Source of the DNA: an uncultured Dokdonia sp.
Lineage (GTDB): Bacteria; Bacteroidota; Bacteroidia; Flavobacteriales; Flavobacteriaceae
Direction of reading: 5' to 3'
Assembly (NCBI RefSeq): GCF_937910895.1
Contig: NZ_CALEMI010000050.1
Span: forward strand, 1-64,000
DNA: 64,000 nucleotides
The position numbers were made by a program, and so were the translations under genes. Under the pieces are notes generated by a model. It ran no database searches. It was not told the origin of the DNA and saw only the letters and a list, made by a program, of their open reading frames with translations. Positions 33,996 to 55,151 of this stretch are shown piece after piece; positions within the stretch are counted from its first letter, which is position 1; each line of letters begins with the position of its first letter.

Positions 33996-34376
33996 AGAGA
34001 CTATACTTATTTATTCAATCTAAAATACTTAAAATCAATTATTTGATTATAGTGCATTATGTTAAATTCAGATTCTTTCAAGTTAGAACCTAATGATTAA
34101 AAAGAAACCCGTATAAATACTTGTTTTCAAAAATCACTAGTACTGATTATATTTTAATACTTAAATTTCACATTGATTTGGATAGCTCTTATCCTATTTC
34201 TTAAAAATAAATTTAAGTGACTACAAGAATTAATACATCAATTTTTCACAAAAGATATTTCTTCTTCTTAGCATAAGAAATCTTTACTACCAAGCTTCAT
34301 TCCAACTCATAACTGATATTTATCATAGCTTTCATCACATTTCAAACATAGTTTTGGGTGATAAACCGAAGCCATT
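33996..34376. other. Divergent intergenic region between the fibre cluster and the first Usp gene
   Basis: 381 nt. The right part holds the FNR-like box and -7 element of the Usp gene (34314-34356). For the minus-strand cluster I could not find a convincing TAnnTTTG element or FNR-like box. The rest is very AT-rich, with no ORF above about 25 codons that looks coding. Confidence 0.5.
34314..34356 (+). promoter_or_regulatory. FNR-like box and -7 element, unit 1 (Usp 34377)
   Basis: TGATATTTATCA (34314-34325) followed after 23 nt by TAGTTTTG (34349-34356). The extended right flank TAGCT fits the consensus TAGTT. Confidence 0.85.
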
Positions 34377-35213
34377 ATGAAAAACATCCTCATTTTGTCA
34401 AACTTTGAATCGTATTCTATAAATGCTACGACCTATGCTATGAACTTTTTTAGCGGGCAATCTTGTCATTTCTATTTTTTAAATATTGTTAAAGTATGGG
34501 AGTATACAACAGATAACTTAATGACAGCATCTAAAGATGAAACGATTTATGACACTATACTATCATCTTCAAAAAGCAAGCTTAAAAAAAAGATAGCATA
34601 TCTTGAAAATACGTATCCAGAAGAAGATTATACCTTTACAGCCCTTGTAGACTACGATGTATTTACAGATGCTATAAAGCAAGCTGTTAAAGCCTATGAT
34701 ATAGATTGTGTTTTAATGGGCTCTAATGGACAGTCCGATTTTATAGAGCGATTGTTTGGAAGTCATAGTACGCGTGTGGTACGCAAAGTAGATTGCCCTG
34801 TATTTATTATCCCTGACAATTATAAGTATACGCCTATACATCATGTACTCTTAGTATTGGATCAGAAGAATGTGTATTCTAGTTATATTTTTGATAAAGC
34901 TTTTAAAATTATAGATAGAAAACCCATCAAAGTAGCTGTATTAAGGCTTTCAGAATCAGAACCTTTATTTAAAAAAGAAGAGGTGGAGCAGATTACAAAA
35001 GATTTTGATCAAAAGAACGTTCCTTATTTTCATCTCTCACATCTTACAGATGATAAGGGTAAACAACTTCAGGTGGTAGATGAGGTTTTACACGCAGACG
35101 CCAATGTAATTAGTACAAGACCTATTTCTTTCACATCCAGAATTATAAAAAATACAGGAGTTGATGAACTGATTTTGAACATTGAGAAACCAACTCTCTT
35201 TTTAAAAGATTAA
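34377..35213 (+). CDS. Tandem universal stress protein
   Basis: 278 residues, two Usp domains (about 1-140 and 155-278). The first keeps the nucleotide-binding motif G-2x-G-9x-G(S/T): GSNG then GSHSTRVV at about 117-135. The second lacks it. It carries a box/-7 pair immediately upstream that places transcription start about 15-25 nt before the ATG. Usp proteins bind ATP and protect cells in stasis or oxygen limitation. This copy is separated from the main Usp array by 11 kb but shares its promoter type. Confidence 0.9.
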   Translation: MKNILILSNFESYSINATTYAMNFFSGQSCHFYFLNIVKVWEYTTDNLMTASKDETIYDTILSSSKSKLKKKIAYLENTYPEEDYTFTALVDYDVFTDAIKQAVKAYDIDCVLMGSNGQSDFIERLFGSHSTRVVRKVDCPVFIIPDNYKYTPIHHVLLVLDQKNVYSSYIFDKAFKIIDRKPIKVAVLRLSESEPLFKKEEVEQITKDFDQKNVPYFHLSHLTDDKGKQLQVVDEVLHADANVISTRPISFTSRIIKNTGVDELILNIEKPTLFLKD

Positions 35214-35227
35214 AGAATGTGTCATAC

Positions 35228-35241
35228 GCTTTCGCGAAAGC
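35228..35241. repeat. 14-bp palindrome, copy 10
   Basis: Perfect copy between the Usp gene and the regulatory site of the Mla-type operon, 27 nt before the box. Confidence 0.9.
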
Positions 35242-35268
35242 GTGCCATCACATACCCCCTTTTATACC

Positions 35269-35311
35269 TGATTAATATCATAGTTATGATCGGTATCTGA
35301 AATTACATTTG
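35269..35311 (+). promoter_or_regulatory. FNR-like box and -7 element, unit 2 (Mla-type operon)
   Basis: TGATTAATATCA (35269-35280), 23 nt, TACATTTG (35304-35311). The ATG at 35316 is only 5 nt further, so the mRNA would be leaderless or nearly so if this -7 element is used. Confidence 0.85.
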
Positions 35312-35315
35312 GTCT

Positions 35316-36098
35316 ATGCAGTTTAAAATTACATATCCCATACGATTACGTGAGTTTTTGGTTGAGATTGGAGATATTTCTTATTTTGCTTTGAGGTATT
35401 TTAAAGAAATCTTTAAAAGTCCTTATGAAACTAGCGAGCTTTTAAAACAATGCTATGTGATCGGGAATAAATCGCTTCTATTAGTTGGCGTTACTGGCTT
35501 TATACTAGGGCTTGTTTTCACTCTTCAATCGCGGCCTACGTTATTAGAATTTGGAGCTGCCTCTTGGATGCCCTCTATGGTAAGCATCTCTATTGTAAGA
35601 GAGATAGGACCTGTTGTTATAGCCCTTATTTGCGCGGGAAAAATTGGTTCGGGTATCGGGGCAGAACTTGGCTCGATGCGTGTGACGGAGCAAATTGACG
35701 CTATGGAAGTATCAGGAACAAATCCTTTTAAATATCTAGTAATAACACGTATCACAGCCACCACATTAATGCTTCCCTTATTGGTTATTTTTGGAGATGC
35801 AATCGCTCTTATAGGATCCTCTTTGGTCGAATATTCAAAGGGAAGTGTTTCATTTATACTCTATTTTAATAAAGTGATTGATGCCTTATCCTTTGGAGAT
35901 ATTCTTCCTGCCACGATAAAAACATTCTTTTTTGGTTTTGTGATAGGTCTTATTGGATGTTACAAAGGCTATCATTGTAAAAAAGGAACCTTAGGGGTTG
36001 GAGAAGCATCCAACTCTGCAGTTGTCTACGCTTCTATGCTACTGTTTATCGTCGATTTTATTGCTGTATTTATATCAGATATCTTTTTTGAAATTTAA
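35316..36098 (+). CDS. mlaE: MlaE-type ABC transporter permease
   Basis: 260 residues with five or six hydrophobic helices and the family core GPVVIALICAGKIGSGIGAE followed by LGSMRVTEQIDAMEVSGTNP, which identify MlaE/TRIC-type lipid transport permeases. It works in the inner membrane with the ATPase and MCE protein encoded next, moving phospholipid between inner and outer membranes. The start codon of the ATPase overlaps its stop by one nt (TAATG). Its promoter belongs to the FNR-like set, which puts envelope lipid homeostasis in that regulon. Confidence 0.9.
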   Translation: MQFKITYPIRLREFLVEIGDISYFALRYFKEIFKSPYETSELLKQCYVIGNKSLLLVGVTGFILGLVFTLQSRPTLLEFGAASWMPSMVSISIVREIGPVVIALICAGKIGSGIGAELGSMRVTEQIDAMEVSGTNPFKYLVITRITATTLMLPLLVIFGDAIALIGSSLVEYSKGSVSFILYFNKVIDALSFGDILPATIKTFFFGFVIGLIGCYKGYHCKKGTLGVGEASNSAVVYASMLLFIVDFIAVFISDIFFEI

Positions 36099-36847
36099 TG
36101 GAAACCACCACTAACATATCACCCGTTCTAGAAATCAAAAATTTGTATAAAAGCTTTGGTGATCATCAAGTACTTAATGGGTTTAATTTGTCTTTATATC
36201 CTGGAGAAAATGTAGTGGTCATGGGGAAATCGGGTTCTGGAAAATCTGTGATGATTAAATGCTTGGTAGGGTTGATGAAAGCGAGTTCAGGAAGTATAAA
36301 AATCCGAGATAAGGATATTACCGCTTTAGGGCAAAAAGAATTAGATTTTTTACGCACAGAGATTGGATTTTTATTTCAAGGTAGCGCTTTGTATGACTCG
36401 ATGACGGTACGTGAAAATCTAGAATTTCCTTTACGTAGGCATCGAGATAAATTACGCTTTCGCGAAAGCACAAAAGACCTTGTACACGAAGCATTAGAAA
36501 ATGTGGGGTTACTAGATGCTATAGATTTAATGCCCGTAGAGTTGTCAGGAGGAATGAAACGTAGAGTCGCTTTAGCCAGAGCATTGATCTTGAAACCAAC
36601 TATCATGCTGTATGATGAGCCAACTACGGGGCTAGATCCTATTACCGCAAAAGAAATCATACAATTAATGCGAAATATTCAAAATACGTATGGCACTTCA
36701 TCTCTCATCATCACACACGATGTTGATTGTGCTCGTGTGATCTCTAATAGAATTATTTTACTGGTAGATGGTATTAATTATGCAGAAGGAACCTATTCTG
36801 AATTATCTTCTTCTGAAGATCCAAAAATTAAAATGTTTTTTAAATAA
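36098..36847 (+). CDS. mlaF: MlaF-type ABC transporter ATP-binding protein
   Basis: 249 residues: Walker A GKSGSGKS (about 44-51), signature LSGGMKRRVALARA (about 149), Walker B IMLYDEPTTGLDP (about 170) and the switch His in ITHDVD. It energises the MlaE-type permease. A palindrome copy at 36456 sits in the helical domain and gives KLRFRESTKD, a surface-exposed charged position. This shows that a highly conserved ATPase can accept the insertion. Confidence 0.92.
   Translation: METTTNISPVLEIKNLYKSFGDHQVLNGFNLSLYPGENVVVMGKSGSGKSVMIKCLVGLMKASSGSIKIRDKDITALGQKELDFLRTEIGFLFQGSALYDSMTVRENLEFPLRRHRDKLRFRESTKDLVHEALENVGLLDAIDLMPVELSGGMKRRVALARALILKPTIMLYDEPTTGLDPITAKEIIQLMRNIQNTYGTSSLIITHDVDCARVISNRIILLVDGINYAEGTYSELSSSEDPKIKMFFK
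36456..36469. repeat. 14-bp palindrome, copy 11
   Basis: Perfect copy inside mlaF, read as RFRES. Confidence 0.9.
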
Positions 36848-36856
36848 ATATGACTT

Positions 36857-37855
36857 ATGGAAAAATCTTCTAAAAATAAAGTACAACTAGGGGTTTTTGT
36901 AATAGTTGGCACCCTACTTCTTGTGATCGTATTATACCTCATAGGAAATAGACAAAATATTTTTTCAAACAATATAAAAATCAATACCAAATTCACCAAT
37001 GTAAATGGGTTACAATTAGGGAATAATGTACGGTATTCTGGAATTGATATAGGCACCGTTCATGCAATTAAAATGCAATCTGATACTATTATTTTGGTAG
37101 AAATGTTACTCAAAGAAAGCATGACAAAATTCCTTAAAAAAGATGCCGTAGCGACGATAGGATCTGATGGATTGGTAGGGAACATGATTGTAAATATCAT
37201 TCCTAGAGAAGGGGAATCACCTCTAGTAATCTCTGGTGATACCATTGAAAGTTATAGTCGTATAAGTACAGATAATATGCTCACAACTCTTAATGCGACC
37301 AACCAAAACTTAGAATTACTCTCTTCCGATTTGCTTAAAGTGACTACCGAAATATTACACGGAGGTGGAACCATCACTTCCTTACTAAAGGATAAAGAAA
37401 TATCAAATGATCTGAAGAGTACCATCACAAATTTGAAGACATCCACTGCAAATATCTCCCTGATGACTCGTGAATTATCAAAAAACTTGGAGCGTATCGA
37501 TATGGAACATAGCGTTGCTGGCGTATTACTTACAGATAGTATCCAAGGGCAAAAAGTAAAAACGATGATCCAAAACGTAGAAATAGCAAGTCAAGATATA
37601 CAGAAAGTAACTGCCTCTCTGGATACCATAATGACTCGTATTGTTAATGGCAAAGGCTCTCTACACCATCTAACGACAGATGAGATTCTTGTAAAGAATA
37701 TTGATAGTACGATGCAACATATAAAAGAAGGTACCGCAAAATTTAATGAGAATATGGAAGCACTCAAACATTCTATTTTTTTCAGGAGATATTTTAAGAA
37801 ACAAGAAAAAGAGACCTTAAAAAGAAAGCAGGAAGAAAAAAAGGAAAACGATTAG
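36857..37855 (+). CDS. mlaD: MlaD/MCE-domain lipid transport protein
   Basis: 332 residues: one N-terminal membrane helix (LGVFVIVGTLLLVIVLYLIG), an MCE domain (about 40-120: TKFTNVNGLQLGNNVRYSG, then VGNMIVNIIP), and a long helical tail (150-315) with heptads typical of the hexameric MCE tunnel or its coiled-coil extension. The end is highly charged (KKQEKETLKRKQEEKKEND). It follows the ATPase by 9 nt as the third gene of the lipid transport operon. The substrate-binding periplasmic MlaC-like protein and an outer-membrane partner are not encoded here. Confidence 0.88.
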   Translation: MEKSSKNKVQLGVFVIVGTLLLVIVLYLIGNRQNIFSNNIKINTKFTNVNGLQLGNNVRYSGIDIGTVHAIKMQSDTIILVEMLLKESMTKFLKKDAVATIGSDGLVGNMIVNIIPREGESPLVISGDTIESYSRISTDNMLTTLNATNQNLELLSSDLLKVTTEILHGGGTITSLLKDKEISNDLKSTITNLKTSTANISLMTRELSKNLERIDMEHSVAGVLLTDSIQGQKVKTMIQNVEIASQDIQKVTASLDTIMTRIVNGKGSLHHLTTDEILVKNIDSTMQHIKEGTAKFNENMEALKHSIFFRRYFKKQEKETLKRKQEEKKEND

Positions 37856-37957
37856 TTGTGTGCGACTAAGACATAAGAACTACTTGTCCCGTATTTAAAA
37901 ACTAGCTGTAAATAAGTGACTTTATCGATTTTATAGCCTAAGTACTTCAGGATTTTT

Positions 37958-38614: not shown

Positions 38615-38917
38615 CTCTTTTAATATTTCTAAAATACAATCTTATCTACTTGGAATACGTCAGATCATCCATTTTTGTTTTTTATTTAAAAATACAAATT
38701 AACGTAAGGAAGACTATTTCTAAAGTCTATAAGATGGTATCCTCTAAATATAGACTTAAAGTATTCTATTAAAAATGAGAAGCATCATATAGTGATACAT
38801 AGAAAACGTTTGAAATAAGCTGATAAAGATCATTTTTTTCGTGTGATTAGAATCCTACTTTCGTAGTATACTACTAAAGCCATATCATTTTAATTCGTTT
38901 CAAAATCTTCTTTTCAC
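38615..38917. other. Divergent intergenic region upp / beta-barrel gene
   Basis: 303 nt. The right part contains the FNR-like unit 3 at 38821-38863. No small ORF or hairpin stands out in the remainder. Confidence 0.5.
38821..38863 (+). promoter_or_regulatory. FNR-like box and -7 element, unit 3 (beta-barrel 38918)
   Basis: TGATAAAGATCA (38821-38832), 23 nt, TACTTTCG (38856-38863). This is the most divergent member: the right flank is not TAG and the -7 element has C for T, but the spacing is exact. Confidence 0.65.
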
Positions 38918-39493
38918 TTGAAAAATATCTATTACATATTATTTATTTCAATCACTACCCTATGTGCTCAAGCGCAAGAGCGCTGGAGTGTCGCTTTTAG
39001 ACCTCAACTCAACTTCCCTACTTCATCTTTTATGGATACGAGCATTAGAGTTGGTAATGGATTAGAACTAGAAGCTACGTATGATGTATTGCCACATTTG
39101 ACTTTTTATACAGGCGTGCATTGGAGTCAATTTGATACTAATGAACAATTTGATGAAGATCACATCAACTTCAATCAAAGTGGATATATTCTTGGAGGGC
39201 GTTTGCGACTTCCTTTTAATAAAAGTAAAATTGGGTATTACCTAAGTGCAGGTACCATATACAGTAGGATACGTATTACTAGTGATAACGTTGCTCATGA
39301 TCAAAAAACAACATTCAAAGTGAACTGGCAATTTGGAGCAGGTGTTCAAATTCCTGTGTTTGAACATTGGGTATTTGCTCCTGAAATACGGTATCGTCCT
39401 GCATCAAACGCTAAAGTGATTATAAATACTATAGAAGAAACACTAGCTATAGACTTCATCACCATAAGTGCGGGAATCGTGTACACGTTTTAA
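38918..39493 (+). CDS. Outer-membrane beta-barrel protein (OmpW/OprF-like size)
   Basis: 191 residues with a signal peptide ending near CAQAQ and an eight-strand-like barrel (FRPQLNFPTSSFMD, LTFYTGVHWSQF, GYYLSAGTIYSRIRI, terminal TISAGIVYTF with aromatic end). The start appears to be TTG at 38918, 55 nt after the proposed -7 element; no ATG gives a signal peptide. It is monocistronic, with the HPF gene behind its own promoter. Confidence 0.75.
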   Translation: MKNIYYILFISITTLCAQAQERWSVAFRPQLNFPTSSFMDTSIRVGNGLELEATYDVLPHLTFYTGVHWSQFDTNEQFDEDHINFNQSGYILGGRLRLPFNKSKIGYYLSAGTIYSRIRITSDNVAHDQKTTFKVNWQFGAGVQIPVFEHWVFAPEIRYRPASNAKVIINTIEETLAIDFITISAGIVYTF

Positions 39494-39561: not shown

Positions 39562-39604
39562 TGATTCATGTCATAGTTTTTGAAGCATACGTCTACTAAT
39601 TTTA
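39562..39604 (+). promoter_or_regulatory. FNR-like box and -7 element, unit 4 (HPF-Usp operon)
   Basis: TGATTCATGTCA (39562-39573) with flank TAGTTTT, 23 nt, TAATTTTA (39597-39604). Confidence 0.82.
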
Positions 39605-39632
39605 AACGACACATTTAAAACCCATAAAGACC

Positions 39633-43228: not shown

Positions 43229-43633
43229 TTATTTATTTAGAAGAAGGTTAAGCTGTGCAAGTAAAACAAGTTCTGATTTATTTACACCAGAAAAAGCATT
43301 TGCAATGGCACTGGCTGTTTTTGAAATTTTTTGTTTAATAGAATCTGTAAATATGTGAGTATTTAATGTATAGTATTCTTTGAAGGTGTCATAGCACTCT
43401 TGTGCCTCATAGACTTCACTATCTAACCAGTTGAATACAATTTCTATTTGAAATGCGCTATTATCTCCATACGCATCAGATTGATTATGTAAGGGGACCC
43501 AAGTGGATGTAATCAGCTTTTTCAATGCATTAATTTCTTCTTCGCGTACGTTATTATCTATAAAAGCAATCGCATAAAAAAGCCTTCCTAAGTTTTGATA
43601 AAAGGTAATATCCAATTTTTCTTCAGTTTTCAT
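43229..43633 (-). CDS. TerB-like helical protein, paralogue of the next gene
   Basis: 134 residues from ATG 43633. A longer reading from 43657 is excluded because the promoter -7 element overlaps it. All-helical, with FYQNLGRLFYAIAFIDNNVR at the start, an acidic pair (VREEEI) as in TerB-type metal-binding folds, and a final VNKSELVLLAQLNLLL. It is closely similar in layout to 43695-44108. TerB-like proteins occur in tellurite/stress modules; a metal or regulatory role is inferred only. Confidence 0.65.
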   Translation of the reverse strand: MKTEEKLDITFYQNLGRLFYAIAFIDNNVREEEINALKKLITSTWVPLHNQSDAYGDNSAFQIEIVFNWLDSEVYEAQECYDTFKEYYTLNTHIFTDSIKQKISKTASAIANAFSGVNKSELVLLAQLNLLLNK

Positions 43634-43654
43634 CTTTTTATAAATTGATTGTAT

Positions 43655-43697
43655 CAAATGTATTTTGATTCTCGTTATTATTATATGACATTCATCA
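43655..43697 (-). promoter_or_regulatory. FNR-like box and -7 element, unit 5 (TerB-like 43633)
   Basis: On the minus strand: TGATGAATGTCA (43697-43686), 23 nt, TACATTTG (43662-43655). It overlaps the stop codon of the upstream TerB-like gene, and it forces the start at 43633. Confidence 0.85.
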
Positions 43698-44108
43698 GCT
43701 TTGAATGAGAAGCGCTTCTTCCAATTTTATTAGGATATTTCTTTCTGATGTACCTACTCCTTGGTAAGAAGTAGCGATAGCACGCGCTGTTTGTACTATT
43801 ATTTTATTTACACTTGGCGTGAAAAATTCTGGATGCTCCTTTTTAAACTCAATAAAGGCATTATACATGTCTTCTCCGTTTGAGGAGAACGCTTCAACAC
43901 CCTCAAATACCATTTCAATAAGATAGGCAGCATCTTCTCCAAAAGCATCTTCAAGATCATCCATATCTAGCCACACATCACGCACATACGTTTGAAGTGT
44001 TGCAAATTCCTGATTATCTATAGAATTATCTGCGATAGCAACGGCATAAAATAATTTACCTAAACTCTGATAGAACGGTAAACTCTTGGATATTTGTGAT
44101 TTCATCAT
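43695..44108 (-). CDS. TerB-like helical protein
   Basis: 137 residues. FYQSLGKLFYAVAIADNSIDNQEF at the start is strongly similar to its neighbour. Then WLDMDDLEDAFGEDAAYLIEMVFEG, and a final GTSERNILIKLEEALL. No membrane segment. It has its own FNR-like promoter unit at 44126-44168 and ends within the next unit. The pair looks like a recent tandem duplication in which each copy kept a promoter. Confidence 0.65.
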   Translation of the reverse strand: MMKSQISKSLPFYQSLGKLFYAVAIADNSIDNQEFATLQTYVRDVWLDMDDLEDAFGEDAAYLIEMVFEGVEAFSSNGEDMYNAFIEFKKEHPEFFTPSVNKIIVQTARAIATSYQGVGTSERNILIKLEEALLIQS

Positions 44109-44125: not shown

Positions 44126-44168
44126 TAAATGTATCTTTACTAGGTATAAAATTCTATGACATATATCA
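44126..44168 (-). promoter_or_regulatory. FNR-like box and -7 element, unit 6 (TerB-like 44108)
   Basis: Minus strand: TGATATATGTCA (44168-44157) with flank TAGAA, 23 nt, TACATTTA (44133-44126). The same box is 34 nt before the divergent histidine kinase gene, but no -7 element lies at the plus-strand position. Confidence 0.82.
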
Positions 44169-44201: not shown

Positions 44202-45368
44202 ATGGATTTTTTCAGAGACAGTATAGAAGATACTTTTTTAACCCTTTTTGAAGGCGTATCTGAGGGTGTCATTGTAGTGAACACAAAACAAATGATTGTG
44301 GCTAGTAATACTGCTGCCAGAACGATTTTTGGATACCAAAAAGAAGAAATGGAAGGAGCACTATTAACGACCATTATTCCTACAGAATACCACAAGAAGC
44401 ATACTGGATATGTGAAGGAATTTATGGCCCATCAGGATAAAAGGCAAATGGGTATAGGAAGGGACTTATTTGGACTCCATAAAGACGGAAGCAAAATGCC
44501 TGTAGAAGTTGGACTCAATCCTTTTGTACTACACGGACATCCTTATATCATGGCGCTTATTACAGATATTACCGTGCGTAAACAACAAGAAGATGAGATA
44601 CGAGATATAAACGCCTCGTTAGAATCTAAAGTAAAGGAACGTACACTACAACTTACAAAAGCGCTTGCTGCCGAAAAGGAACTTAACGAATTAAAAACAA
44701 AGTTTTTATCCTTGGTTTCTCATGAGTTTAAAACGCCTTTATCTGGCATTCTGACATCGGCTACCCTTGCTGGAAAATATACCAAGGATGAGCAACAGGA
44801 AAAAAGAGAAAAACACTTAAAAACCATACGAAGTAAAGTTAAACACTTGAATACGATTATAGATGATTTTTTATCTATAGAACGTTTACAATCAGGAAAG
44901 GTAACTTACAAGTTTACCTCCTTCCCAATTAGTAAAATATTTGATGAAGTCATTTATGATGCAAATATGCATCTCAAAGATGGGCAAATTATTAAATACC
45001 CTAAAAGTGCAAGTGATTTGATTATAGAGTTTGATGAAAAAATATTGGAATTAGTCCTTACAAACCTTATTCATAATGCGATAAAATATTCTGGCGAAGA
45101 TTCTATAGTAGCTATTGATATAGAAAAAAGTGACACTCAATTACAAATTGCTATTAAAGATGAAGGCATTGGTATTCCAGAAAAGGAACAGAAATTTATA
45201 TTTGACAGGTATTTTAGAGCAGAAAATGCCTTGACCTGTCAAGGTACTGGGATAGGACTTAATATTGTAAAAAATCATCTAGAGAACTTAAAAAGCACCA
45301 TATCCTTTCAGAGTGAGCAAGATGTAGGTTCTACCTTTACCATAACCATCCCTTTATCTCAAGATTAA
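44202..45368 (+). CDS. PAS-domain sensor histidine kinase
   Basis: 388 residues, no membrane helix. A PAS domain (about 12-125: FEGVSEGVIVVN, AARTIFGYQKEEMEG, LFGLHKDGSKMPVEVGLNPF) is followed by a short coiled coil, HisKA with H174 (SLVSHEFKTPLSGI), and HATPase (NLIHNAIKYS, DEGIGIP, GTGIGLNIV). The PAS type resembles FixL/redox sensors; no haem His can be asserted, and a cytoplasmic small-ligand or redox cue is likely. It is 20 nt upstream of the receiver-CRP/FNR hybrid, so the two form a cognate pair. Confidence 0.92.
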   Translation: MDFFRDSIEDTFLTLFEGVSEGVIVVNTKQMIVASNTAARTIFGYQKEEMEGALLTTIIPTEYHKKHTGYVKEFMAHQDKRQMGIGRDLFGLHKDGSKMPVEVGLNPFVLHGHPYIMALITDITVRKQQEDEIRDINASLESKVKERTLQLTKALAAEKELNELKTKFLSLVSHEFKTPLSGILTSATLAGKYTKDEQQEKREKHLKTIRSKVKHLNTIIDDFLSIERLQSGKVTYKFTSFPISKIFDEVIYDANMHLKDGQIIKYPKSASDLIIEFDEKILELVLTNLIHNAIKYSGEDSIVAIDIEKSDTQLQIAIKDEGIGIPEKEQKFIFDRYFRAENALTCQGTGIGLNIVKNHLENLKSTISFQSEQDVGSTFTITIPLSQD

Positions 45369-45388: not shown

Positions 45389-46435
45389 ATGAAGACTATT
45401 TTATTAATTGAAGATGATACCGCTTTACGCGAAAATACTGCCGAGCTATTAATGCTTTCCAATTATGATGTAATCACTGCTGCCAATGGGGTTCTAGGCA
45501 TTGCGGCTGCCAAAGAAAAACTCCCAGATCTTATTATATGTGATATTATGATGCCTATGGCAGATGGATATGAAGTCTTAGAAACCCTGTCTAGTGATTC
45601 AAAAACAAGGCAGATTCCGTTTATATTTCTTTCTGCAAAGACCGAACATAAGGAAATACGTAAGGGGATGAACTTGGGTGCAGATGACTATCTTACAAAA
45701 CCTTTTGAAGAAGAAGACCTTATCAGCGCTGTCGAAAGTCGGCTGGCAAAAACATTTATACTTTCAAATATAGCCCGTACAACGCAAGAGGACAAAGAGG
45801 AAGATCAAATACGGAGTCTTAACGAATTAAAAAACTTTTTTGATGACCAAGGAGACATCGTCATCTACAAAAGTGGAGACGTTATTTTTGAAGAGGGAGC
45901 AAACTCAAATTACATCTATTTAATCCTAAAAGGGATTGTCAAAACCTATAAAATGGATCAAAAAGGCAAAGCTCTTATTACAGCATTATTTAAACCAGAT
46001 GATTTTTTAGGGTTTACCTCCTTTGTCGATAATGTACCGTACCAAGAATCTGCTACCGTAATTAAAGATGCAGAACTTGCCGCAGTTTCAAAGTCTGAAT
46101 TAAAAGATATTCTGAAAAAAAATCAAAAAGTATCCTTAGAACTTATGGAACTTTTAACCGATAACTTATCGGAAATTAAATCACAATTGCTTCAAATGGC
46201 GTATAGCTCTGTACGTAAAAAAACTGCACAAACTATTTTACAGTTTGTAGAAGTGCTTAACAAAAAACCAGAAGAAGGCATCCGCATCTCCAGAAATGAT
46301 CTTGCAAGTGTTGCTGGCATCGCTACAGAAAGTTTAATCCGCACCTTATCTGGATTTAAAAAAGAAGGTCTTATAGAAGTAGAAGGTCGCAACATTAGAA
46401 TCTTGGATATAGAAGGGTTAACCGAGATAGAGTAA
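45389..46435 (+). CDS. Hybrid response regulator: receiver + cyclic-nucleotide-type + CRP/FNR HTH
   Basis: 348 residues. Receiver domain 1-120 with D52 in CDIMMP and the Lys in DDYLTKPF. A cNMP-type jelly roll spans about 150-265 (VIYKSGDVIFEEGANSNYIYL). A winged helix spans about 270-345 with recognition helix ATESLIRTLSGF, where the Glu and Arg that read TGA in CRP/FNR are kept. No N-terminal Cys cluster, so it is not an FeS-FNR; control is probably phosphorylation by the adjacent PAS kinase. It is the proposed binder of the TGA(T/C)N4(A/G)TCA boxes in this region. Confidence 0.92.
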   Translation: MKTILLIEDDTALRENTAELLMLSNYDVITAANGVLGIAAAKEKLPDLIICDIMMPMADGYEVLETLSSDSKTRQIPFIFLSAKTEHKEIRKGMNLGADDYLTKPFEEEDLISAVESRLAKTFILSNIARTTQEDKEEDQIRSLNELKNFFDDQGDIVIYKSGDVIFEEGANSNYIYLILKGIVKTYKMDQKGKALITALFKPDDFLGFTSFVDNVPYQESATVIKDAELAAVSKSELKDILKKNQKVSLELMELLTDNLSEIKSQLLQMAYSSVRKKTAQTILQFVEVLNKKPEEGIRISRNDLASVAGIATESLIRTLSGFKKEGLIEVEGRNIRILDIEGLTEIE

Positions 46436-46531: not shown

Positions 46532-46574
46532 TGATATTTATCATAGTTATCCCTATTGCATCAAAATACATTTG
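46532..46574 (+). promoter_or_regulatory. FNR-like box and -7 element, unit 7 (Usp 46592)
   Basis: TGATATTTATCA (46532-46543), flank TAGTTAT, 23 nt, TACATTTG (46567-46574). The box sequence is identical to unit 1. Confidence 0.87.
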
Positions 46575-46591
46575 TATACTTACACATACGA

Positions 46592-47413
46592 ATGATGAAG
46601 AATATTTTAATCCCAGTTGATTTTTCTGAGGTCTCTTGGAATGCTGTTTATTGTGCAATCTGTCATTTTAAAGACGACACTATTCAGTTTTATATAGCCC
46701 ATATAGAATCCCCTCCCACAACCTCAGAAGAAAATGGATCTTTAGTCATTCACAAGAACATTGCAAATCATAAAAAACTTCAACAATGGGTTACTAAAGC
46801 AACAAAACTTGCCACACCAAAACAACAGATTATTCCACTTGAAAAGACAGGTCATTTTATACACACACTAAGAGATATTGTAAAAAACTACACGATAAAT
46901 CTGATTGTTATTGGAACCCAACAATCCAATGTATTTGAAGATACCTTGGTGGGGAGTTACACTCGAGAAATCATTACACGCATAAAACAACCTGTACTCA
47001 TTGTTCCTCAGGAAGTGCCCTGCCCTACTCCAAAACAAATCGCACTTATTACAGACTTCAATTTTAAACATAATAGAAAAGCACTCCAACTAATTTCTGA
47101 AATCACCTCAGTTAGAAATGCGCATTTAAGTATTTTAAATTTAATAAAACAAGAAGGTTTTATTAATGAAAATCAAGCTGAAAACAAAAAGTCTTTACAA
47201 GAAAATTTTGCAAACTTAGATCATAGCTTTCACTTTGTGGTGAATCAAACGATGGATGAAGCGTTACAGTTTTTTATAAATGTACAGAATGTAGACCTCA
47301 TCATTTTATTTGCCAAGAACATGAATTTTTCAGAACATTTATTATACTCTCCTTCTACAGATGCTACGATTAGTTATCATAAGCACATTCCTTTTTTAAT
47401 TGTACATGAATAA
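46592..47413 (+). CDS. Tandem universal stress protein, array copy 1
   Basis: 273 residues from ATG 46592 (or the adjacent ATG at 46595). A longer start at 46556 lies in the promoter and is rejected. The first motif is degenerate: GTQQ for GxxG, then GSYT; the second domain also lacks it. So this copy is probably a non-ATP-binding family member. It starts the array of six Usp genes. Confidence 0.88.
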   Translation: MMKNILIPVDFSEVSWNAVYCAICHFKDDTIQFYIAHIESPPTTSEENGSLVIHKNIANHKKLQQWVTKATKLATPKQQIIPLEKTGHFIHTLRDIVKNYTINLIVIGTQQSNVFEDTLVGSYTREIITRIKQPVLIVPQEVPCPTPKQIALITDFNFKHNRKALQLISEITSVRNAHLSILNLIKQEGFINENQAENKKSLQENFANLDHSFHFVVNQTMDEALQFFINVQNVDLIILFAKNMNFSEHLLYSPSTDATISYHKHIPFLIVHE

Positions 47414-47422
47414 AAAAGTAGC

Positions 47423-47465
47423 TGACATAAATCATATTTAGTTAGCTATATATAAGATAGTTTTG
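47423..47465 (+). promoter_or_regulatory. FNR-like box and -7 element, unit 8 (Usp 47491)
   Basis: TGACATAAATCA (47423-47434), flank TATTTAG, 23 nt, TAGTTTTG (47458-47465). Confidence 0.82.
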
Positions 47466-49196: not shown

Positions 49197-50042
49197 ATGA
49201 AACATATATTAGTGCCTACCGATTTTTCAGATAATGCCTATAGTGCGCTCAGTTATGTACGACTCTTATTACAAGATGAAGAAGTGATATTTACGTTATA
49301 TCATGCGTATGAGCCTTCGCCTATATTACTCCTTGGTAAAAGTCCGTATCGCGTAGGTGCTATCTACAATAGTTGTAAGAAAGTGGCTAATGAAAAAATA
49401 GAACAACTTTTGACAAAAATTAATGGTTTAAACGAAAACCAAAAGCACACCTACGAAACAATATCTTCTGGAGGCGCTTTAGAAGAAGCCATTAAGGCTA
49501 TAGACATAGATCGTTATGATTTTATAGCTATGGGGTCCAAGGGTGCTACAGGTCTTAAGACTGTATTCTGGGGGAGTAACACGTTTAGCCTTGTCAATAT
49601 GTCTCTGAAAAAACCAATACTTATCATACCTGAAAATAGTATTTACAAAAACCCTGAAAAAATAGCTTTTGCTACCAATTTTACGAGAAGTTACTTAAAA
49701 GAAGAATTACAAACTCTTATTGAAATTACTCAAAAATGGAATGCATCATTACGAGTCATAGAGGTCTATTATGACCCAATACTTACCGAAGAACAGCAAG
49801 AACATTTAGAAACACTAGAAAACCTATTGATACCAGTTGCATCCAATTTTCATGTAATACCTCATTTTAATACGGTAGAAAAGGCTATTACTATTTTTAA
49901 TAAGGAACTTGAAATTGATATGCTTGCGATGATTAATTACCCAAAAAGTCTTTTTCAAAAAATAGTACGTGAACCCATCATTAAAAAAATGGTACATCAT
50001 ACCACCATTCCATTTTTAGTATTACCATCACTTACTGACTAA
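49197..50042 (+). CDS. Tandem universal stress protein, array copy 4
   Basis: 281 residues. Domain 1 motif AMGSKGATGLKTVFWGSNT is intact; domain 2 degenerate (MINYPKSLFQKIVREP). Its last codons and TAA stop (LTD-stop) lie within the box of unit 9, so the end of the protein and the regulatory site constrain each other. Confidence 0.9.
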   Translation: MKHILVPTDFSDNAYSALSYVRLLLQDEEVIFTLYHAYEPSPILLLGKSPYRVGAIYNSCKKVANEKIEQLLTKINGLNENQKHTYETISSGGALEEAIKAIDIDRYDFIAMGSKGATGLKTVFWGSNTFSLVNMSLKKPILIIPENSIYKNPEKIAFATNFTRSYLKEELQTLIEITQKWNASLRVIEVYYDPILTEEQQEHLETLENLLIPVASNFHVIPHFNTVEKAITIFNKELEIDMLAMINYPKSLFQKIVREPIIKKMVHHTTIPFLVLPSLTD

Positions 50043-50078
50043 TATCATAGTTTTCACTTTCTGTGTCTCTTACTTTTA
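50036..50078 (+). promoter_or_regulatory. FNR-like box and -7 element, unit 9 (Usp 50101)
   Basis: TGACTAATATCA (50036-50047), flank TAGTTTT, 23 nt, TACTTTTA (50071-50078). The box includes the stop codon of the preceding Usp gene. Confidence 0.85.
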
Positions 50079-50100
50079 TTCTATCTAAAAACGAGTCCTT

Positions 50101-50949
50101 ATGAGATACATAGCAGTTCCCACAGACTTTTCAGAAAATGCATACAATGCTTTATTATATGCTACACGGCTTTTTCCGAATCAAGAATACACCATCATCC
50201 TTATCCATTCCTATGAGACAGAATTTTCAACCTCTACAAGTAGAATAGATATAGGACGTAATGAAGAATTATATCTTGAGATTGAACAAAGAGTTTCTAA
50301 AAATTTTGAAGCGTTGACTCACAAAATCGCAAGAGATACAGAAGGACTACACGTTAGCTTTGAAACTCTTATGACAGGTTTCCCTTTGTTTAAATGCATC
50401 TATAAATTACAAGAAGAAAAACCTGTTAGCCTTATTGTTATGGGAACAAAAGGAGCTACAGGCATACGGCAACTTTTTATGGGAAGTCAGACCATACGTC
50501 TGATCAAAAAAATATATAAACTCCCCGTCATTGTTGTGCCTGAAAATGCAGATTTTACGCCTCCAAAAATTATTGCGATCGCAACCGATTTTAAAACCGC
50601 TATACATACTCACGCCATTACCACACTAAAAGACATTGCAACCTCTAATGATGCTGTTATAAAAATCACGCATATCTACGATCAAAAAAATCCTGAAGAT
50701 GTTTTTGAAACTAATTATAAAAAAATAAAGAAAAGTTTATCAGATATCGAATACACCACGCATTGGCTTTCTAACACCTCTAAAAAAGAAAACGTACTGA
50801 ATGAGTTTGTTAAAAAAATGAATGTTGACCTACTAGTACTCACATATCACAAGCACAGTATGCTACAAAAGCTTTTCAAAGAAAACATTGTAGAAAATAT
50901 AGGATTTCACACCTCAATTCCATTATTAGTCTTTACAAATACTGACTGA
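50101..50949 (+). CDS. Tandem universal stress protein, array copy 5
   Basis: 282 residues. VMGTKGATGIRQLFMGSQT: intact motif in domain 1; LTYHKHSMLQKLFKEN degenerate in domain 2. Ends NTD-stop within unit 10. Confidence 0.9.
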   Translation: MRYIAVPTDFSENAYNALLYATRLFPNQEYTIILIHSYETEFSTSTSRIDIGRNEELYLEIEQRVSKNFEALTHKIARDTEGLHVSFETLMTGFPLFKCIYKLQEEKPVSLIVMGTKGATGIRQLFMGSQTIRLIKKIYKLPVIVVPENADFTPPKIIAIATDFKTAIHTHAITTLKDIATSNDAVIKITHIYDQKNPEDVFETNYKKIKKSLSDIEYTTHWLSNTSKKENVLNEFVKKMNVDLLVLTYHKHSMLQKLFKENIVENIGFHTSIPLLVFTNTD

Positions 50950-50989
50950 TATATATCATAGTTGTTTTAAAGAACGATCGTTAATTTTA
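50947..50989 (+). promoter_or_regulatory. FNR-like box and -7 element, unit 10 (Usp 51014 operon)
   Basis: TGATATATATCA (50947-50958), flank TAGTTGT, 23 nt, TAATTTTA (50982-50989). The TGA of the box is the stop codon of the preceding gene. Confidence 0.85.
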
Positions 50990-51013
50990 ATCAACCAAAA
51001 AATCCTCATTATT

Positions 51014-51865: not shown

Positions 51866-51877
51866 AATAGAACACTC

Positions 51878-52288
51878 ATGAAAAATATAGGAATCTGGAT
51901 GGATAAGCGTCAAGCGCTGATCCTTTATATCACAGAAGGTAAAGAAGATTTTAAAATCCTTACGTCAGATGTAGAAGAATATAACGTACAAGGAGGATCT
52001 GGAACTAGACTAAAAGGAGGGCCACAAGATGTGATACACGATAGTAAATACCTAGCACACGAGAAAAAACAATTGAAAAACTATTTTAAAAACATCACAG
52101 AAAACATAGTAGACGTAGATCAATTAGCACTTTTTGGACCAGCAGAAACAGCTGGAAAGTTTAGAAAAGAACTCAAAGAAAACTATGAAAGGCTCTCGAG
52201 TAAAGTCGTTGTTTTAAAGACTGCAGATAGCATGACAGAAAACCAGACAAAAGCGTTGATTCGCGATTTTTTCAAAGAGTACCATTAG
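51878..52288 (+). CDS. eRF1-domain-3-like (baeRF-type) small protein
   Basis: 136 residues with IGIWMDKRQALILYI at the start (typical WMDxxxA), a central disordered stretch (GGSGTRLKGGPQDV), YLAHEKKQLKNYFKNI and then LALFGPAETAGKFRKEL, which matches the L7Ae/eRF1 domain-3 helix-strand motif of bacterial archaeo-eukaryotic release-factor-like proteins. It may act on stalled or hibernating ribosomes. It follows the last Usp gene by 12 nt. Confidence 0.6.
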   Translation: MKNIGIWMDKRQALILYITEGKEDFKILTSDVEEYNVQGGSGTRLKGGPQDVIHDSKYLAHEKKQLKNYFKNITENIVDVDQLALFGPAETAGKFRKELKENYERLSSKVVVLKTADSMTENQTKALIRDFFKEYH

Positions 52289-52308
52289 AATGATGGGTAT
52301 TATTTTTT

Positions 52309-53226
52309 ATGCGCTTTCGCGAAAGCATACCAACAATAAGCTCACTAAAAAAAGAGTTGATCTCTCATACATTTCCATTCGTTAATATTCAAACTGTGAA
52401 AGAAAAATCAACTATTAAGGTACAGAAATCATCAGGAGAAAAGGTAAATTTTTCATTACCAAAACTCAAAAAGTCACTTCGGCATAGCGGTGCTAGTGAA
52501 AAAGACATTCAACAAATTATAGATATTGTCCGAGACGAATTATATCAAGGCATTTCTACCCGAGAAATCTATAATCGAGCGTTTGTTTTACTCAAAAAGA
52601 AGAAATCTATTTTTGCTTCCAAATACAAACTTAAAAAAGCTATTTATGAATTAGGTCCTACAGGATTTCCCTTTGAACATTTTATAGCAGAAATCTTGGG
52701 TCACTCAGGATTTCAAGTAGCAGTAGGTCAATATGTACAAGGAAAATGTGTTACCCACGAGATAGACGTGGTCGCTATAAAGAATACTAAAAAATTATTT
52801 ATCGAGTGTAAATTTCATGGAGAAGAAGGACGTAATTGTGATGTAAAAATACCGCTATACATTCATTCTAGATATAACGATATCACCACCACGCAATCTC
52901 AAGAATATGAATATGAAGGTTGGGTAGTCACAAATACGCGCTTTACATCAGATGCTATACAATATGGAAAATGTGCTCAATTATATCTTTTAAGCTGGGA
53001 TTTTCCAAAAGGCAACGGACTTAAAGATAGAATTGATCGAATTGGGTTATACCCTATCACTGTATCTACACTGCTCTCAAATAGAGAAAAAGTGTTTTTG
53101 TTAGATAGAGGTATTGTACTCTGTAAACAATTATTAAAAGCTGTTTTTTACCTAGATCATTTAGGGATTTCTGAAGGACGAAAAGAGCAAATTACTAACG
53201 AAATAAAACTACTCTGCAATGCCTAA
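52309..53226 (+). CDS. ATP-cone domain fused to PD-(D/E)XK nuclease domain
   Basis: 305 residues if ATG 52309 is used. An ATP-cone spans about 35-105 (IKVQKSSGEKVNFSLPKLKKS, then ISTREIYNRAFVLLKKK). An Mrr-like nuclease fold spans about 120-220: D153 in HEIDVV, E166 and K168 in FIECKF. Nucleotide-gated cleavage of DNA or RNA is suggested by this fusion. The ATG is immediately next to a palindrome copy (MRFRES); a GTG start at 52396 (VKEKSTIKV) may be the original one. The gene overlaps the RNase gene by 8 nt. Confidence 0.8.
   Translation: MRFRESIPTISSLKKELISHTFPFVNIQTVKEKSTIKVQKSSGEKVNFSLPKLKKSLRHSGASEKDIQQIIDIVRDELYQGISTREIYNRAFVLLKKKKSIFASKYKLKKAIYELGPTGFPFEHFIAEILGHSGFQVAVGQYVQGKCVTHEIDVVAIKNTKKLFIECKFHGEEGRNCDVKIPLYIHSRYNDITTTQSQEYEYEGWVVTNTRFTSDAIQYGKCAQLYLLSWDFPKGNGLKDRIDRIGLYPITVSTLLSNREKVFLLDRGIVLCKQLLKAVFYLDHLGISEGRKEQITNEIKLLCNA
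52313..52326. repeat. 14-bp palindrome, copy 14
   Basis: Perfect copy two codons after the proposed ATG of the ATP-cone/nuclease gene, read as RFRES. Confidence 0.9.
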
Positions 53227-54613
53227 AGCAACCTCCCTTCAAAAAATAAAAATTCATTTCCTAGGCGCTACAAAAACAGTGACAGGCTCCAAGTTTCTTA
53301 TAGAAACCCCTTCTTTTAATATTCTTTTAGACTGCGGAATGTTTCAAGGACTTAAAGAATTAAGAGAGCGCAATTGGGAACCATTACCCTTTGATGTTTC
53401 TAGTATAGATCTTGTTGTATTAACCCACGGCCATCTTGATCATACTGGATATTTACCAAGACTACTCAAACAAGGATTTGAAGGCAATATCTTAGGTACT
53501 TCCCCTACCTTAGAAATTACATCTATTATTCTAAAAGACAGTGCCAGGATACATGAAGAAGATGCAAAACGCGCTAACGAAGAAGGATTTACAAAGCACA
53601 GTCCTGCACTTCCATTTTATACCGAAAAAGAAGCACAGAAGACTATCACACTGTTTAAAATAATCGAACCTGAAAAATGGATAGAATTACACGATAAAAT
53701 TTTCTGTAGGTGGATGCCTGTAGGGCATATTATAGGAGCTACTTTTATTGAATTAAAAATAAATGAAACCATTTTTGTATTTTCTGGAGATGTAGGAAGA
53801 CCCCAAGATCTTTTGTTAAGACCTCCTAAAAAACCCGAATGGGCAGATTTTCTTTTTTTAGAAAGCACCTATGGAGACAGATTACATCAAGAAGATGATA
53901 CAGAAGAAAAGTTAATTACTCTTATTAAAGAATTGGTCCATACAAGAGGTACCCTTATTATCCCAAGCTTTGCTGTAGAACGATTACAAACATTGATGTA
54001 CATCCTATGGAAATTACATCTTAAAAATCGCATTCCAAATATTCCTGTGTATGTAGATAGTCCTATGGGAAATAATGTGCTTTCTGTGTTTGAACGTTTT
54101 ACAGAATGGCATAAAATAAGCCCAAAAGAGTATAAAGCAATGTGTAATCACGTTCATATTGTTACATCGTATAGAGAAACCTGGGAAGTTATTGATAAAC
54201 CTATTCCAAAAATTGTGATTGCTGGTAGTGGGATGGTGACAGGAGGACGTGTACTTACCTATTTAAAGCAGTATATTGATAACGCAACCACTAGAATATT
54301 ATTAGTAGGATATCAAGCAGAAGGTACTAGAGGACGCCAGTTACAAGAAGGCTTACACGAAGTAAAAATTTATGGAAAATATTATCCTGTAAAAGCGCAA
54401 GTGCATCAGATCCAAAGCCTCTCTGCACATGGAGATCAGCAAGATTTAATTGATTGGGTAAGTGATATAAAAAATGTGCCAGAAAAAGTATTTTTAGTAC
54501 ACGGAGAAGCGAGTGCTTGTGATGCATTTAGAGTCAAATTACAACATCGTTTTCATTGGAATATTGAAATCCCAAACCTTCATCAAACAACAGAAATTTA
54601 TATAGCTGATTAA
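53219..54613 (+). CDS. Metallo-beta-lactamase/beta-CASP RNase-like protein (RMMBL)
   Basis: 464 residues. THGHLDHTGYLP (H70, H72, D74, H75) is the metal site; FSGDVGR and ESTYGDR follow. The beta-CASP region includes PSFAVERLQTLMYIL, YVDSPMG and IAGSGMVTGGR. The final SLSAHGDQQDLIDW and VFLVHGEASACDAF are the RMMBL motifs of CPSF-type RNases. Likely role: RNA processing or decay in the same operon as the ATP-cone/nuclease gene. Ends IAD-stop inside unit 11. Confidence 0.92.
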   Translation: MPKATSLQKIKIHFLGATKTVTGSKFLIETPSFNILLDCGMFQGLKELRERNWEPLPFDVSSIDLVVLTHGHLDHTGYLPRLLKQGFEGNILGTSPTLEITSIILKDSARIHEEDAKRANEEGFTKHSPALPFYTEKEAQKTITLFKIIEPEKWIELHDKIFCRWMPVGHIIGATFIELKINETIFVFSGDVGRPQDLLLRPPKKPEWADFLFLESTYGDRLHQEDDTEEKLITLIKELVHTRGTLIIPSFAVERLQTLMYILWKLHLKNRIPNIPVYVDSPMGNNVLSVFERFTEWHKISPKEYKAMCNHVHIVTSYRETWEVIDKPIPKIVIAGSGMVTGGRVLTYLKQYIDNATTRILLVGYQAEGTRGRQLQEGLHEVKIYGKYYPVKAQVHQIQSLSAHGDQQDLIDWVSDIKNVPEKVFLVHGEASACDAFRVKLQHRFHWNIEIPNLHQTTEIYIAD

Positions 54614-54649
54614 TGTCATAGTTTCTTTTTTTAAGAGGTCCTAATTTTA
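54607..54649 (+). promoter_or_regulatory. FNR-like box and -7 element, unit 11 (54684)
   Basis: TGATTAATGTCA (54607-54618), flank TAGTTTC, 23 nt, TAATTTTA (54642-54649). The TAA in the box is the stop codon of the RNase gene. Confidence 0.85.
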
Positions 54650-54683
54650 TCTTTTTATAAACTAAAAGGTACGTCGCAAGATT

Positions 54684-55091
54684 ATGGAAACACAGATCAA
54701 AAATGAACAGAACAACTATCATCTAGTAGCAAAAGAATGGAAATCAAATCTTCTATTTGTTGAAAATGAAATTCATTTTATTGAACAACTCATACATTCT
54801 TATGTATTTGAACCGAATACGCCTACTCTTTTTGAACGCCTTGAGCATTTCAAAACTCAAATTTTAGACATCAAAGAAAAGCATAAAAAGATACGGCAAC
54901 GTGTTGTCAATCATGATAATGAATTAGGAGGATTGATGGAGTCTCATGATATAATCTCTCTGAACACATCTTTTGATAAAAAACAGCAAATGGTTTCTGC
55001 GGATTACACTCAATTTATCACAGTTTATAAAACCCTTAAATCTGAAATATTTGAATACTGCGGAGGTATCTTAAAACATAATAAAAAGTAG
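54684..55091 (+). CDS. Helical/coiled-coil protein (stress-island type A)
   Basis: 135 residues, almost entirely helical: KEWKSNLLFVENEIHFIEQL, then FKTQILDIKEKHKKIRQ and YKTLKSEIFEYCGG. Layout and the WxxxLxFxExExxFxxQL pattern are shared with 55761-56210. No signal or membrane helix. Unknown function; monocistronic from unit 11. Confidence 0.6.
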   Translation: METQIKNEQNNYHLVAKEWKSNLLFVENEIHFIEQLIHSYVFEPNTPTLFERLEHFKTQILDIKEKHKKIRQRVVNHDNELGGLMESHDIISLNTSFDKKQQMVSADYTQFITVYKTLKSEIFEYCGGILKHNKK

Positions 55092-55108
55092 GCATTTTAA
55101 TCTATTAC

Positions 55109-55151
55109 TGATTGATATCATAGTTTTTGATACCCTTCCATAGTACTTTTA
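55109..55151 (+). promoter_or_regulatory. FNR-like box and -7 element, unit 12 (Hsp20)
   Basis: TGATTGATATCA (55109-55120), flank TAGTTTT, 23 nt, TACTTTTA (55144-55151). Confidence 0.85.

Follow-up and report, generated by a model that had tools for sequence, protein, structure and literature searches.

A fixed-spacing promoter unit in a Usp-rich island of an uncultured Dokdonia species, and the probable role of a receiver–CRP fusion and a FixL-type kinase in its control

The stretch of DNA considered here, referred to as the window, comprises the first 64,000 nucleotides (nt) of contig NZ_CALEMI010000050.1 (C50 below), which belongs to an uncultured Dokdonia sp. of the family Flavobacteriaceae (assembly GCF_937910895.1). 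It harbors an island of genes rich in Usp proteins, in the middle of which lie a histidine kinase of the FixL type and a regulator, named REC-CRP here, that combines a receiver with a CRP-like half. Throughout the island, a 43-nt unit consisting of a palindromic box and a -7 element at a fixed distance precedes the genes. The units and genes are as follows, with the bases that continue the box given in brackets for each unit.

34314..34356, plus: 43-nt unit (TAG), exact, 5' of Usp1
34377..35213, plus: Usp1 (PF00582)
35269..35311, plus: 43-nt unit (TAG), exact, 5' of mlaEFD
35316-36098, 36098-36847 and 36857-37855, plus: MlaE, MlaF and MlaD, a lipid-transport operon (PF02405, PF00005, PF02470)
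38821..38863, plus: degenerate 43-nt unit (TTT; -7 element TACTTTCG), box found, unit inexact
38918..39493, plus: outer-membrane beta-barrel protein (PF13505)
39562..39604, plus: 43-nt unit (TAG), exact, 5' of HPF-Usp2
39633-39932, plus: HPF (PF02482, S30AE)
39952-40788, plus: Usp2 (PF00582)
43229..43633, minus: conserved small protein, TerB-like only below threshold; its ATG at 43633 follows the unit
43655..43697, minus: 43-nt unit (TAT), exact, 5' of the gene ending at 43229
43695..44108, minus: conserved small protein, no match above cut-off in family searches
44126..44168, minus: 43-nt unit (TAG), exact, 5' of the 43695-44108 gene and divergent from the kinase
44202..45368, plus: FixL-type PAS histidine kinase (PAS, HisKA, HATPase; best PDB match the FixL heme domain)
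45389..46435, plus: REC-CRP regulator (receiver PF00072, cNMP fold PF00027, Crp helix-turn-helix (HTH) PF13545)
46532..46574, plus: 43-nt unit (TAG), exact, directly 3' of REC-CRP and 5' of Usp3
46556..47413, plus: Usp3, as the listed open reading frame (ORF); PF00582 on 46571-47413, first ATG past the unit at 46592
47423..47465, plus: 43-nt unit (TAT), exact, 5' of Usp4-Usp5-Usp6
47491-48336, 48340-49194 and 49197-50042, plus: Usp4, Usp5 and Usp6 (PF00582)
50036..50078, plus: 43-nt unit (TAG), exact, 5' of Usp7
50101..50949, plus: Usp7 (PF00582)
50947..50989, plus: 43-nt unit (TAG), exact, 5' of the Usp8 operon
51014-51865, plus: Usp8 (PF00582)
51878-52288, plus: 136-aa protein of the Usp8 operon, no family match above the curated cut-off
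52309-53226, plus: Mrr-type nuclease with an ATP-cone-like part (PF04471), Usp8 operon
53219-54613, plus: beta-CASP metallo-RNase (PF10996), Usp8 operon
54607..54649, plus: 43-nt unit (TAG), exact, 5' of the 54684 gene
54684..55091, plus: small protein, no match above cut-off in family searches
55109..55151, plus: 43-nt unit (TAG), exact, 5' of the Hsp20 operon
55177-55620, plus: Hsp20 (PF00011)
55695-56210 and 56212-56868, plus: two proteins without an assigned family, between Hsp20 and the dehydrogenase
56872-57861, plus: D-lactate dehydrogenase-like 2-hydroxyacid dehydrogenase (PF02826)

All twelve boxes of the original prediction are present where it had placed them and on the same strands, starting at the first letter of each plus-strand unit and at 43697 and 44168 on the minus strand. 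It had also assigned box and -7 element to a span of 43 nt in every case. This holds for 11 of the 12 units, which match the pattern TGAYNNNNRTCA-N23-TANNTTTR (box TGAYN4RTCA) exactly; only the unit at 38821 deviates, its box being followed by TTT, its -7 element reading TACTTTCG and the whole having two mismatches to the TAK pattern. TAG or TAT follows 11 of the boxes (TAG 9, TAT 2), one more than the ten counted before. In 100 dinucleotide shuffles of the window, the exact unit occurred 0.02 times on average and at most once, against 11 in the real sequence. By itself, the box is less selective, occurring 20 times where 5.3 are expected; the signal lies in the fixed 23-nt spacing.

CRP/FNR activators at class II promoters of E. 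coli are centered at -41.5. In the units, the center of the box lies 29.5 nt 5' of the T (-12) of TAnnTTTG. The -7 element of F. johnsoniae is numbered T-12, A-11, T-8, T-7, T-6, G-5 in the accessible text of PMC6847099, with 4-5 nt from the element to the start in 241 sequences deemed probable promoters. On this published scale, the box extends from -47 to -36 with its center at -41.5, which bears out the class II geometry proposed earlier. In other words, a two-fold symmetric box of the CRP/FNR type is held at -41.5 by a fixed spacing, and the bases after it, mostly T, A/T and G/T, sit at the place of the weak -33 element. Most likely, the units are promoters of the class II type, dependent on an activator and used by the housekeeping sigma factor of the Bacteroidota.

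The source genome (4.81 Mb) was scanned as a whole, as the original prediction had proposed, with the reversed pattern as the control. The pattern TGAYN4RTCATAKN20TANNTTTR has 12 exact matches, 11 of them in the window and one at C50:66173-66215, whereas its reversed form has none in the 4.81 Mb. All 12 fall inside a 32-kb part of contig C50 (34.3 to 66.2 kb), so that exact TAK units are confined to the island in this genome. Dropping the TAK condition gives 25 matches, compared with one for the control. Fourteen of these lie outside the window, including four in the stretch C52:158855-173913, where an FNR gene and the cbb3 genes are close by, as well as two identical matches inside long ORFs on C113, which are probably due to chance. 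A relaxed scan allowing two mismatches was abandoned as a source of further targets, being too noisy (70 matches against 41 for the reversed pattern). The additional unit at C50:66173-66215 faces a minus-strand ORF at 65588-66094.

The unit and its spacing are conserved around REC-CRP in related bacteria. In a family sample of 199 genomes, one per genus, REC-CRP was found in 86 (best E <1e-75), and a phylum sample of 395 genomes yielded it in 55 (E 1e-60 or better), among them members of other families in this class; the closest among the named relatives is Dokdonia pacifica, with 79% identity in REC-CRP. Around 20 orthologues, the gene order HPF-Usp, small gene, kinase, REC-CRP, Usp genes, nuclease-RNase, Hsp20 and dehydrogenase recurs with gains and losses, and the units recur at the same places. 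A further 80 named loci were reduced to 78 when two copies of L068 and L072 were dropped (the labels are ours). A unit lies directly 3' of REC-CRP and before a Usp gene in all 20 orthologue loci, and within 450 nt 3' of REC-CRP in 58 of 76 further loci, two of the 78 being unscored at a contig end; 15 more have the box only. Spacing 23 accounts for 113 units in the 20 orthologue loci (any other spacing from 0 to 60 gives at most 5), for 335 in the 78 named loci (any other at most 8) and for 448 in all 98 (any other at most 13). Two control palindromes gave none at spacing 23 in the 78 loci, but they are rarer than the box (150 and 314 against 1082 occurrences).

Across the 98 loci, 432 of the 448 units lie within 300 nt 5' of a start codon and 436 lie outside ORF bodies. 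One unit without a flank was omitted from the base table; in the remaining 447, a T follows the box in 96%, though the pattern does not require it. By best match to the window genes, the first gene after the unit is a Usp gene in 212 cases, HPF in 30, one of the two small genes in 57, DUF3298 in 10, Hsp20 in 8 and MlaE in 6, while 89 have no match and the others account for at most 4 each. A unit precedes HPF in 30 loci (HPF was found in 34 of the 98) and MlaE in 6 (found in 7). Homologues of the 43229-43633 gene have a unit before them in 41 loci and were found in 48; for the 43695-44108 gene, the numbers are 16 and 22. By this comparison of sequences, the two small proteins are taken as core members of the predicted regulon.

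A different arrangement appears around 33 distant REC-CRP loci (36-46% identical), of which 29 come from other families and 4 from the Flavobacteriaceae. Here, besides 23 cases at spacing 23, the box occurs at spacing 45 in 22 cases. Pairs of boxes with an offset of 22 bp number 21, whereas no other offset from 12 to 59 occurs more than twice; in the 98 close loci, the 22-bp offset was seen once. Where boxes are paired (L226-L238, L259-L278), their centers are at -63.5 and -41.5, 5' of a TAnnTTTR element; 16 of the 22 spacing-45 matches have an imperfect downstream box. The genes that follow the 22 matches are a 2-hydroxyacid dehydrogenase (7), Hsp20 (2) and an ATP-cone nuclease (1), while the other 12 have no match to a window gene (10) or no start found (2). 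Two of the 22 matches come from the Flavobacteriaceae (L237, L278), and the arrangement therefore follows the type of REC-CRP rather than the family. This contrast between one box and two offers a case in which the promoter grammar changes while the regulator and some target types stay recognizable.

The regulator encoded at 45389-46435 joins a receiver to a cNMP-type beta-barrel and a Crp-type HTH within a single protein, with PF00072 at residues 4-116. All 21 aligned orthologues have the receiver residues D9, D10, D52 and K104, as expected of a two-component receiver, and the stretch GIATESLIRT of the recognition helix is likewise invariant. What we take to be the Glu, Arg and Ser residues of the cyclic AMP (cAMP) phosphate pocket are absent, as REC-CRP reads LGFTS...PYQESA where the Crp/Fnr chain 4cyd reads FGELS...PRTSSA. 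FNR is an iron–sulfur (Fe-S) protein with cysteines for a 4Fe-4S cluster; the sole Cys of REC-CRP is residue 51, in the receiver. None of the 60 PDB matches listed for REC-CRP, out of 369, spans both halves; each is confined to the receiver or to the CRP part.

The kinase lies directly 5' of REC-CRP in 91 of the 98 loci. The best PDB match of its PAS domain is the FixL heme domain (E 3.9e-15), with more FixL entries and DosP behind it. Kinases were found in 95 of the 98 loci, and the column of the heme-binding His is His in 92 of 96 sequences, the window included, in keeping with a FixL PAS that has its proximal His. Among the distant loci, a kinase was found in 28 of 33, and the column is His in 28 of 29 sequences, again counting the window. 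The aligned Arg, presumably the distal oxygen-binding Arg of FixL, is present in 74 of the 96, including the window kinase, and in 23 of the 29 of the distant set. This FixL-type PAS lends independent support to the low-oxygen idea of the original prediction.

As for the targets listed in that prediction, family matches agree with eight Usp proteins, MlaE, MlaF and MlaD, HPF, Hsp20, the beta-barrel, the Mrr-type nuclease and the beta-CASP RNase. Two names are not confirmed: the small protein ending at 43229, queried as 43229-43630 and 43229-43657, is TerB-like only below the threshold (E 0.064 for 43229-43657), and the supposed release factor at 51878 has no match above the curated cut-off. 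The ATP-cone match of the nuclease (PF03477) falls just below its cut-off (25.0 against 25.8 bits). Judging by spacing, the genes from Hsp20 to the dehydrogenase (55177..57861) would form one operon. The best PDB match of the dehydrogenase is the fermentative D-lactate dehydrogenase 5z20 (E 8e-78). Together, Usp, HPF and Hsp20, a D-lactate dehydrogenase-like enzyme and a FixL-type sensor would fit a low-oxygen survival programme.

REC-CRP is most likely the main activator of the island, as its position, the conserved synteny and the comparison of its presence and absence with that of the units suggest; these support the earlier choice of this protein as the candidate regulator. The following chain of events can be proposed. 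Its starting points, namely the units with their spacing, -41.5 position, clustering and conservation, the domain composition and the heme-ligand residues, come from computation, whereas DNA binding and activation, the binding of heme, the sense in which oxygen acts and dormancy itself are predicted. Oxygen would leave the heme of the FixL-type PAS kinase (44202-45368), which would then phosphorylate Asp52 in the receiver of REC-CRP. The CRP-like half would dimerise on the box and contact RNA polymerase, with the TGAYN4RTCA palindrome at -41.5 replacing a good -33 element. The island, with its Usp, HPF, Hsp20, MlaEFD, nuclease/RNase operon and D-lactate dehydrogenase-like enzyme, would thereby be transcribed as part of a low-oxygen or dormancy response. 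We hold with considerable confidence that this combination of class II units, a main activator in REC-CRP and a switch in the FixL-type kinase is the best explanation of the island.

The comparison of genomes bears on which protein reads the units. The source genome also encodes an FNR-like protein (C52:159857-160558) beside cbb3 oxidase genes, and the 199 genomes were sorted by the presence of the two regulators, with searches that scored only the best 10 or 14 candidates per genome, so that an absence may be a miss. The mean number of TAK units per genome is 6.8 where both are present (49 genomes), 4.9 with REC-CRP only (37), 2.7 with FNR only (70) and 0.49 with neither (43); in total there are 727 units, against 6 for the reversed pattern. 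At least one unit occurs in 36 of the 37 genomes with REC-CRP and no FNR found, whereas 37 of the 43 genomes with neither have none. Many of the latter are small, and among genomes of at least 2.9 Mb the two groups still differ (31 against 12, p 2e-6, with kinship ignored). REC-CRP alone thus seems enough to keep units. In six FNR-less genomes, 7 of 7, 7 of 8, 13 of 17, 10 of 17, 12 of 33 and 3 of 19 units lie within 50 kb of REC-CRP, so that the clustering around it is strong in most of these genomes and weak in one. These six are among ten hand-picked genomes, most of them chosen for having a single contig; the four without REC-CRP have 7-9 units each.

Several observations weigh against the proposed scheme. 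The unit at 38821, one of the twelve, is weak, and 6 of the 86 genomes counted as having REC-CRP have only a homologue of 42-48% identity. Of the 96 kinases, 22 lack the FixL Arg, and 83 of 92 contain a stricter motif of fixed spacing, 70 of these with the Arg. The presence/absence test ignores shared ancestry, and in two genomes many units lie far from REC-CRP (G143, 3 of 19 within 50 kb; G056, 12 of 33). A unit precedes the kinase gene in 3 of 98 loci and the REC-CRP gene in 2. Units are present in the 70 FNR-only genomes at the mean already given, and 12 REC-CRP-less genomes have the island nuclease gene, with the unit kept before the Usp-nuclease operon in 4 of the 7 that were fetched. Six genomes with neither regulator have units as well, and three of these (G048, G138, G147) have 5-8 each, which may reflect an undetected regulator or an incomplete assembly.

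The idea that the kinase and REC-CRP regulate their own genes by way of a class II unit was rejected, with units in at most 5 of 98 loci; in an exact pattern scan of the window, no unit faces the kinase gene.

Among the alternatives, the one that survives best accepts the units as real promoters but places another signal above them: the kinase would respond to redox state, nitric oxide, carbon monoxide or a nutrient, and the island would be a general stress or stationary-phase set. Usp, HPF and Hsp20 do respond to many stresses, and the kinases without the FixL Arg (22 of 96) would suit this view. The near-constant heme-binding His in close and distant kinases argues for oxygen instead, as does the D-lactate dehydrogenase-like enzyme of the island, a homologue of which is the next gene after 7 of the 22 tandem-position matches in distant loci. 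A signal other than oxygen is thus unlikely, while still the most serious of the competing accounts.

A second alternative holds that the FNR-like protein is the true activator of the island, REC-CRP being just a neighbor or a modulator of other genes. The two proteins have a common recognition-helix core, E..IRTL; FNR neighborhoods from 20 genomes with both regulators contain 32 units at the same 23-nt spacing; and REC-CRP-less genomes with FNR carry units, some of them at island genes. On the other side, units are kept in nearly all genomes in which REC-CRP but no FNR was found, gathered at REC-CRP in the six examined. Moreover, in the source genome, the six units near FNR/cbb3 and on C83 all continue with TCT (two of these are a single palindrome read in the two directions), against TAG or TAT in all 11 exact units of the window (Fisher p 8e-5, nominal, as the suffixes were known when the groups were drawn and other matches such as CAC and TTT were excluded). 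On balance, it is improbable that FNR is the activator of the island in place of REC-CRP. The weakest account, which attributes the repeated unit to tandem gene duplication rather than to regulation, draws on six tandem Usp genes whose upstream DNA could have a common ancestry, and is very improbable, since units also precede the unrelated HPF, MlaE, Hsp20 and small-protein genes and the 23-nt spacer is mostly near background composition over the 447 units, yet fixed in length.

Exclusive control by REC-CRP, in turn, is rejected in view of the units in FNR-only genomes and at island genes in REC-CRP-less genomes. Since FNR-only genomes have units, control is probably shared, and the units kept before the Usp-nuclease operon show that the unit is not private to REC-CRP. 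In our reading, two proteins use one common core grammar, and REC-CRP is the main one of the two for the island; the FNR-like protein of the cell probably recognizes the same core and may share some sites. The TAG suffix was also rejected as a family-wide mark of REC-CRP: TAG units occur in REC-CRP-less genomes, the suffixes near REC-CRP vary, and TAG/TAT separates two sets of units within the source genome only.

The regions C52:158855-173913 and C83:30004-32284 (L193, L194), where units continue with TCT, likely hold the FNR regulon of the source genome, with genes that by eye resemble Usp, the cbb3 region, hemN, PPK2 and CBS. In 11 of the 20 FNR neighborhoods (L244, L245, L247, L250, L251, L253-L258), just 9 nt separate a box from the -7 element that follows it. 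The box then falls between the -33 and -7 regions, just 5' of the apparent start of the FNR gene, which suggests autorepression of FNR.

On a wider scale, the evidence leans slightly toward an oxygen-sensing dormancy system spread across the Bacteroidia. In this system, a FixL-type heme kinase would drive the receiver-CRP fusion, and the 43-nt unit would be read by two activators with different sensors, REC-CRP and FNR, distinguished partly by the -34/-33 bases and the upstream flank, with two boxes 22 bp apart often serving distant REC-CRP proteins. To our knowledge, the survival of oxygen loss by aerobic Bacteroidota has been little studied. Here, a sensor and a regulator come together with a DNA box, a precisely defined promoter geometry and a set of genes across dozens of genera, and the rigid spacing would make the unit a clean case of class II activation at a divergent Bacteroidota sigma factor.

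Several known systems resemble this one in part. The FixL-FixJ-FixK cascade of rhizobia and Burkholderia likewise has a FixL-type heme PAS kinase, a receiver, a CRP/FNR-type output and a low-oxygen logic. FixJ is composed of a receiver and a LuxR/NarL-type HTH, whereas the output of REC-CRP is a cNMP fold with HTH_Crp_2; FixK is a stand-alone CRP/FNR protein without a receiver, whereas REC-CRP has one. FixK and FixJ do appear among the NCBIfam matches to the two halves of REC-CRP, with scores far below their cut-offs. Here, receiver and CRP output are fused in one protein, and the FixJ step is therefore absent. E. coli class II CRP/FNR promoters have the same activator center of -41.5, and the differences lie in the Bacteroidota -7 element TAnnTTTG with its own sigma factor and in a regulator without cAMP-pocket residues or Fe-S cysteines.

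DosST-DosR also shows heme-based sensing and has an Hsp20 member, but its regulator is of the NarL type and its sensors are GAF heme proteins, in contrast to the Crp-type output of the island regulator. The likeness lies in a Usp-rich hypoxia regulon: in Mycobacterium tuberculosis, 10 of the 48 DosR genes are Usp genes, according to the accessible text of PMC6127331. The lxa locus of Burkholderia cenocepacia differs from the island in phylum, sigma factor and promoter. Its regulator has no receiver fusion. The same portion of PMC6127331 ties the Usp block of this locus to low oxygen and names BCAM0049, a CRP-family FixK homologue, as the proposed regulator. In NmpRSTU of Myxococcus xanthus, an oxygen-linked two-component system controls a cbb3 oxidase and a Usp, with an NtrC-like regulator and, in a related species, a protoglobin-domain sensor (PMC11841059, in its accessible part). 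The kinase and REC-CRP of the window look like a FixL-FixJ-FixK cascade that has been reduced to two genes and would drive a DosR-like set of Usp, HPF, Hsp20, D-lactate dehydrogenase-like and nuclease genes. Among the open-access literature matches listed, no REC-CRP regulator or FixL-like system in Bacteroidota appeared, which is weak evidence, as the subscription literature lies mostly outside that scope. In the accessible text of PMC8510549, a CRP/FNR homologue from one Flavobacteriales bin is regarded as MalR-like, and the word "receiver" does not occur.

Two neighboring regions may also be mentioned. Just past the window, at C50:67416-70763, there are two ORFs that by eye resemble pta (phosphotransacetylase) and ackA (acetate kinase). 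On the minus strand of the window, several large genes follow one another at 14992-31633. Among them are matches to DUF6603 and to Kelch-like and PQQ-like propellers, two proteins of more than 700 aa without a Pfam match at 1e-4 and, at 14992-16428, a protein with a Peptidase_S74 chaperone domain; this run looks like an unusual self-contained cluster.

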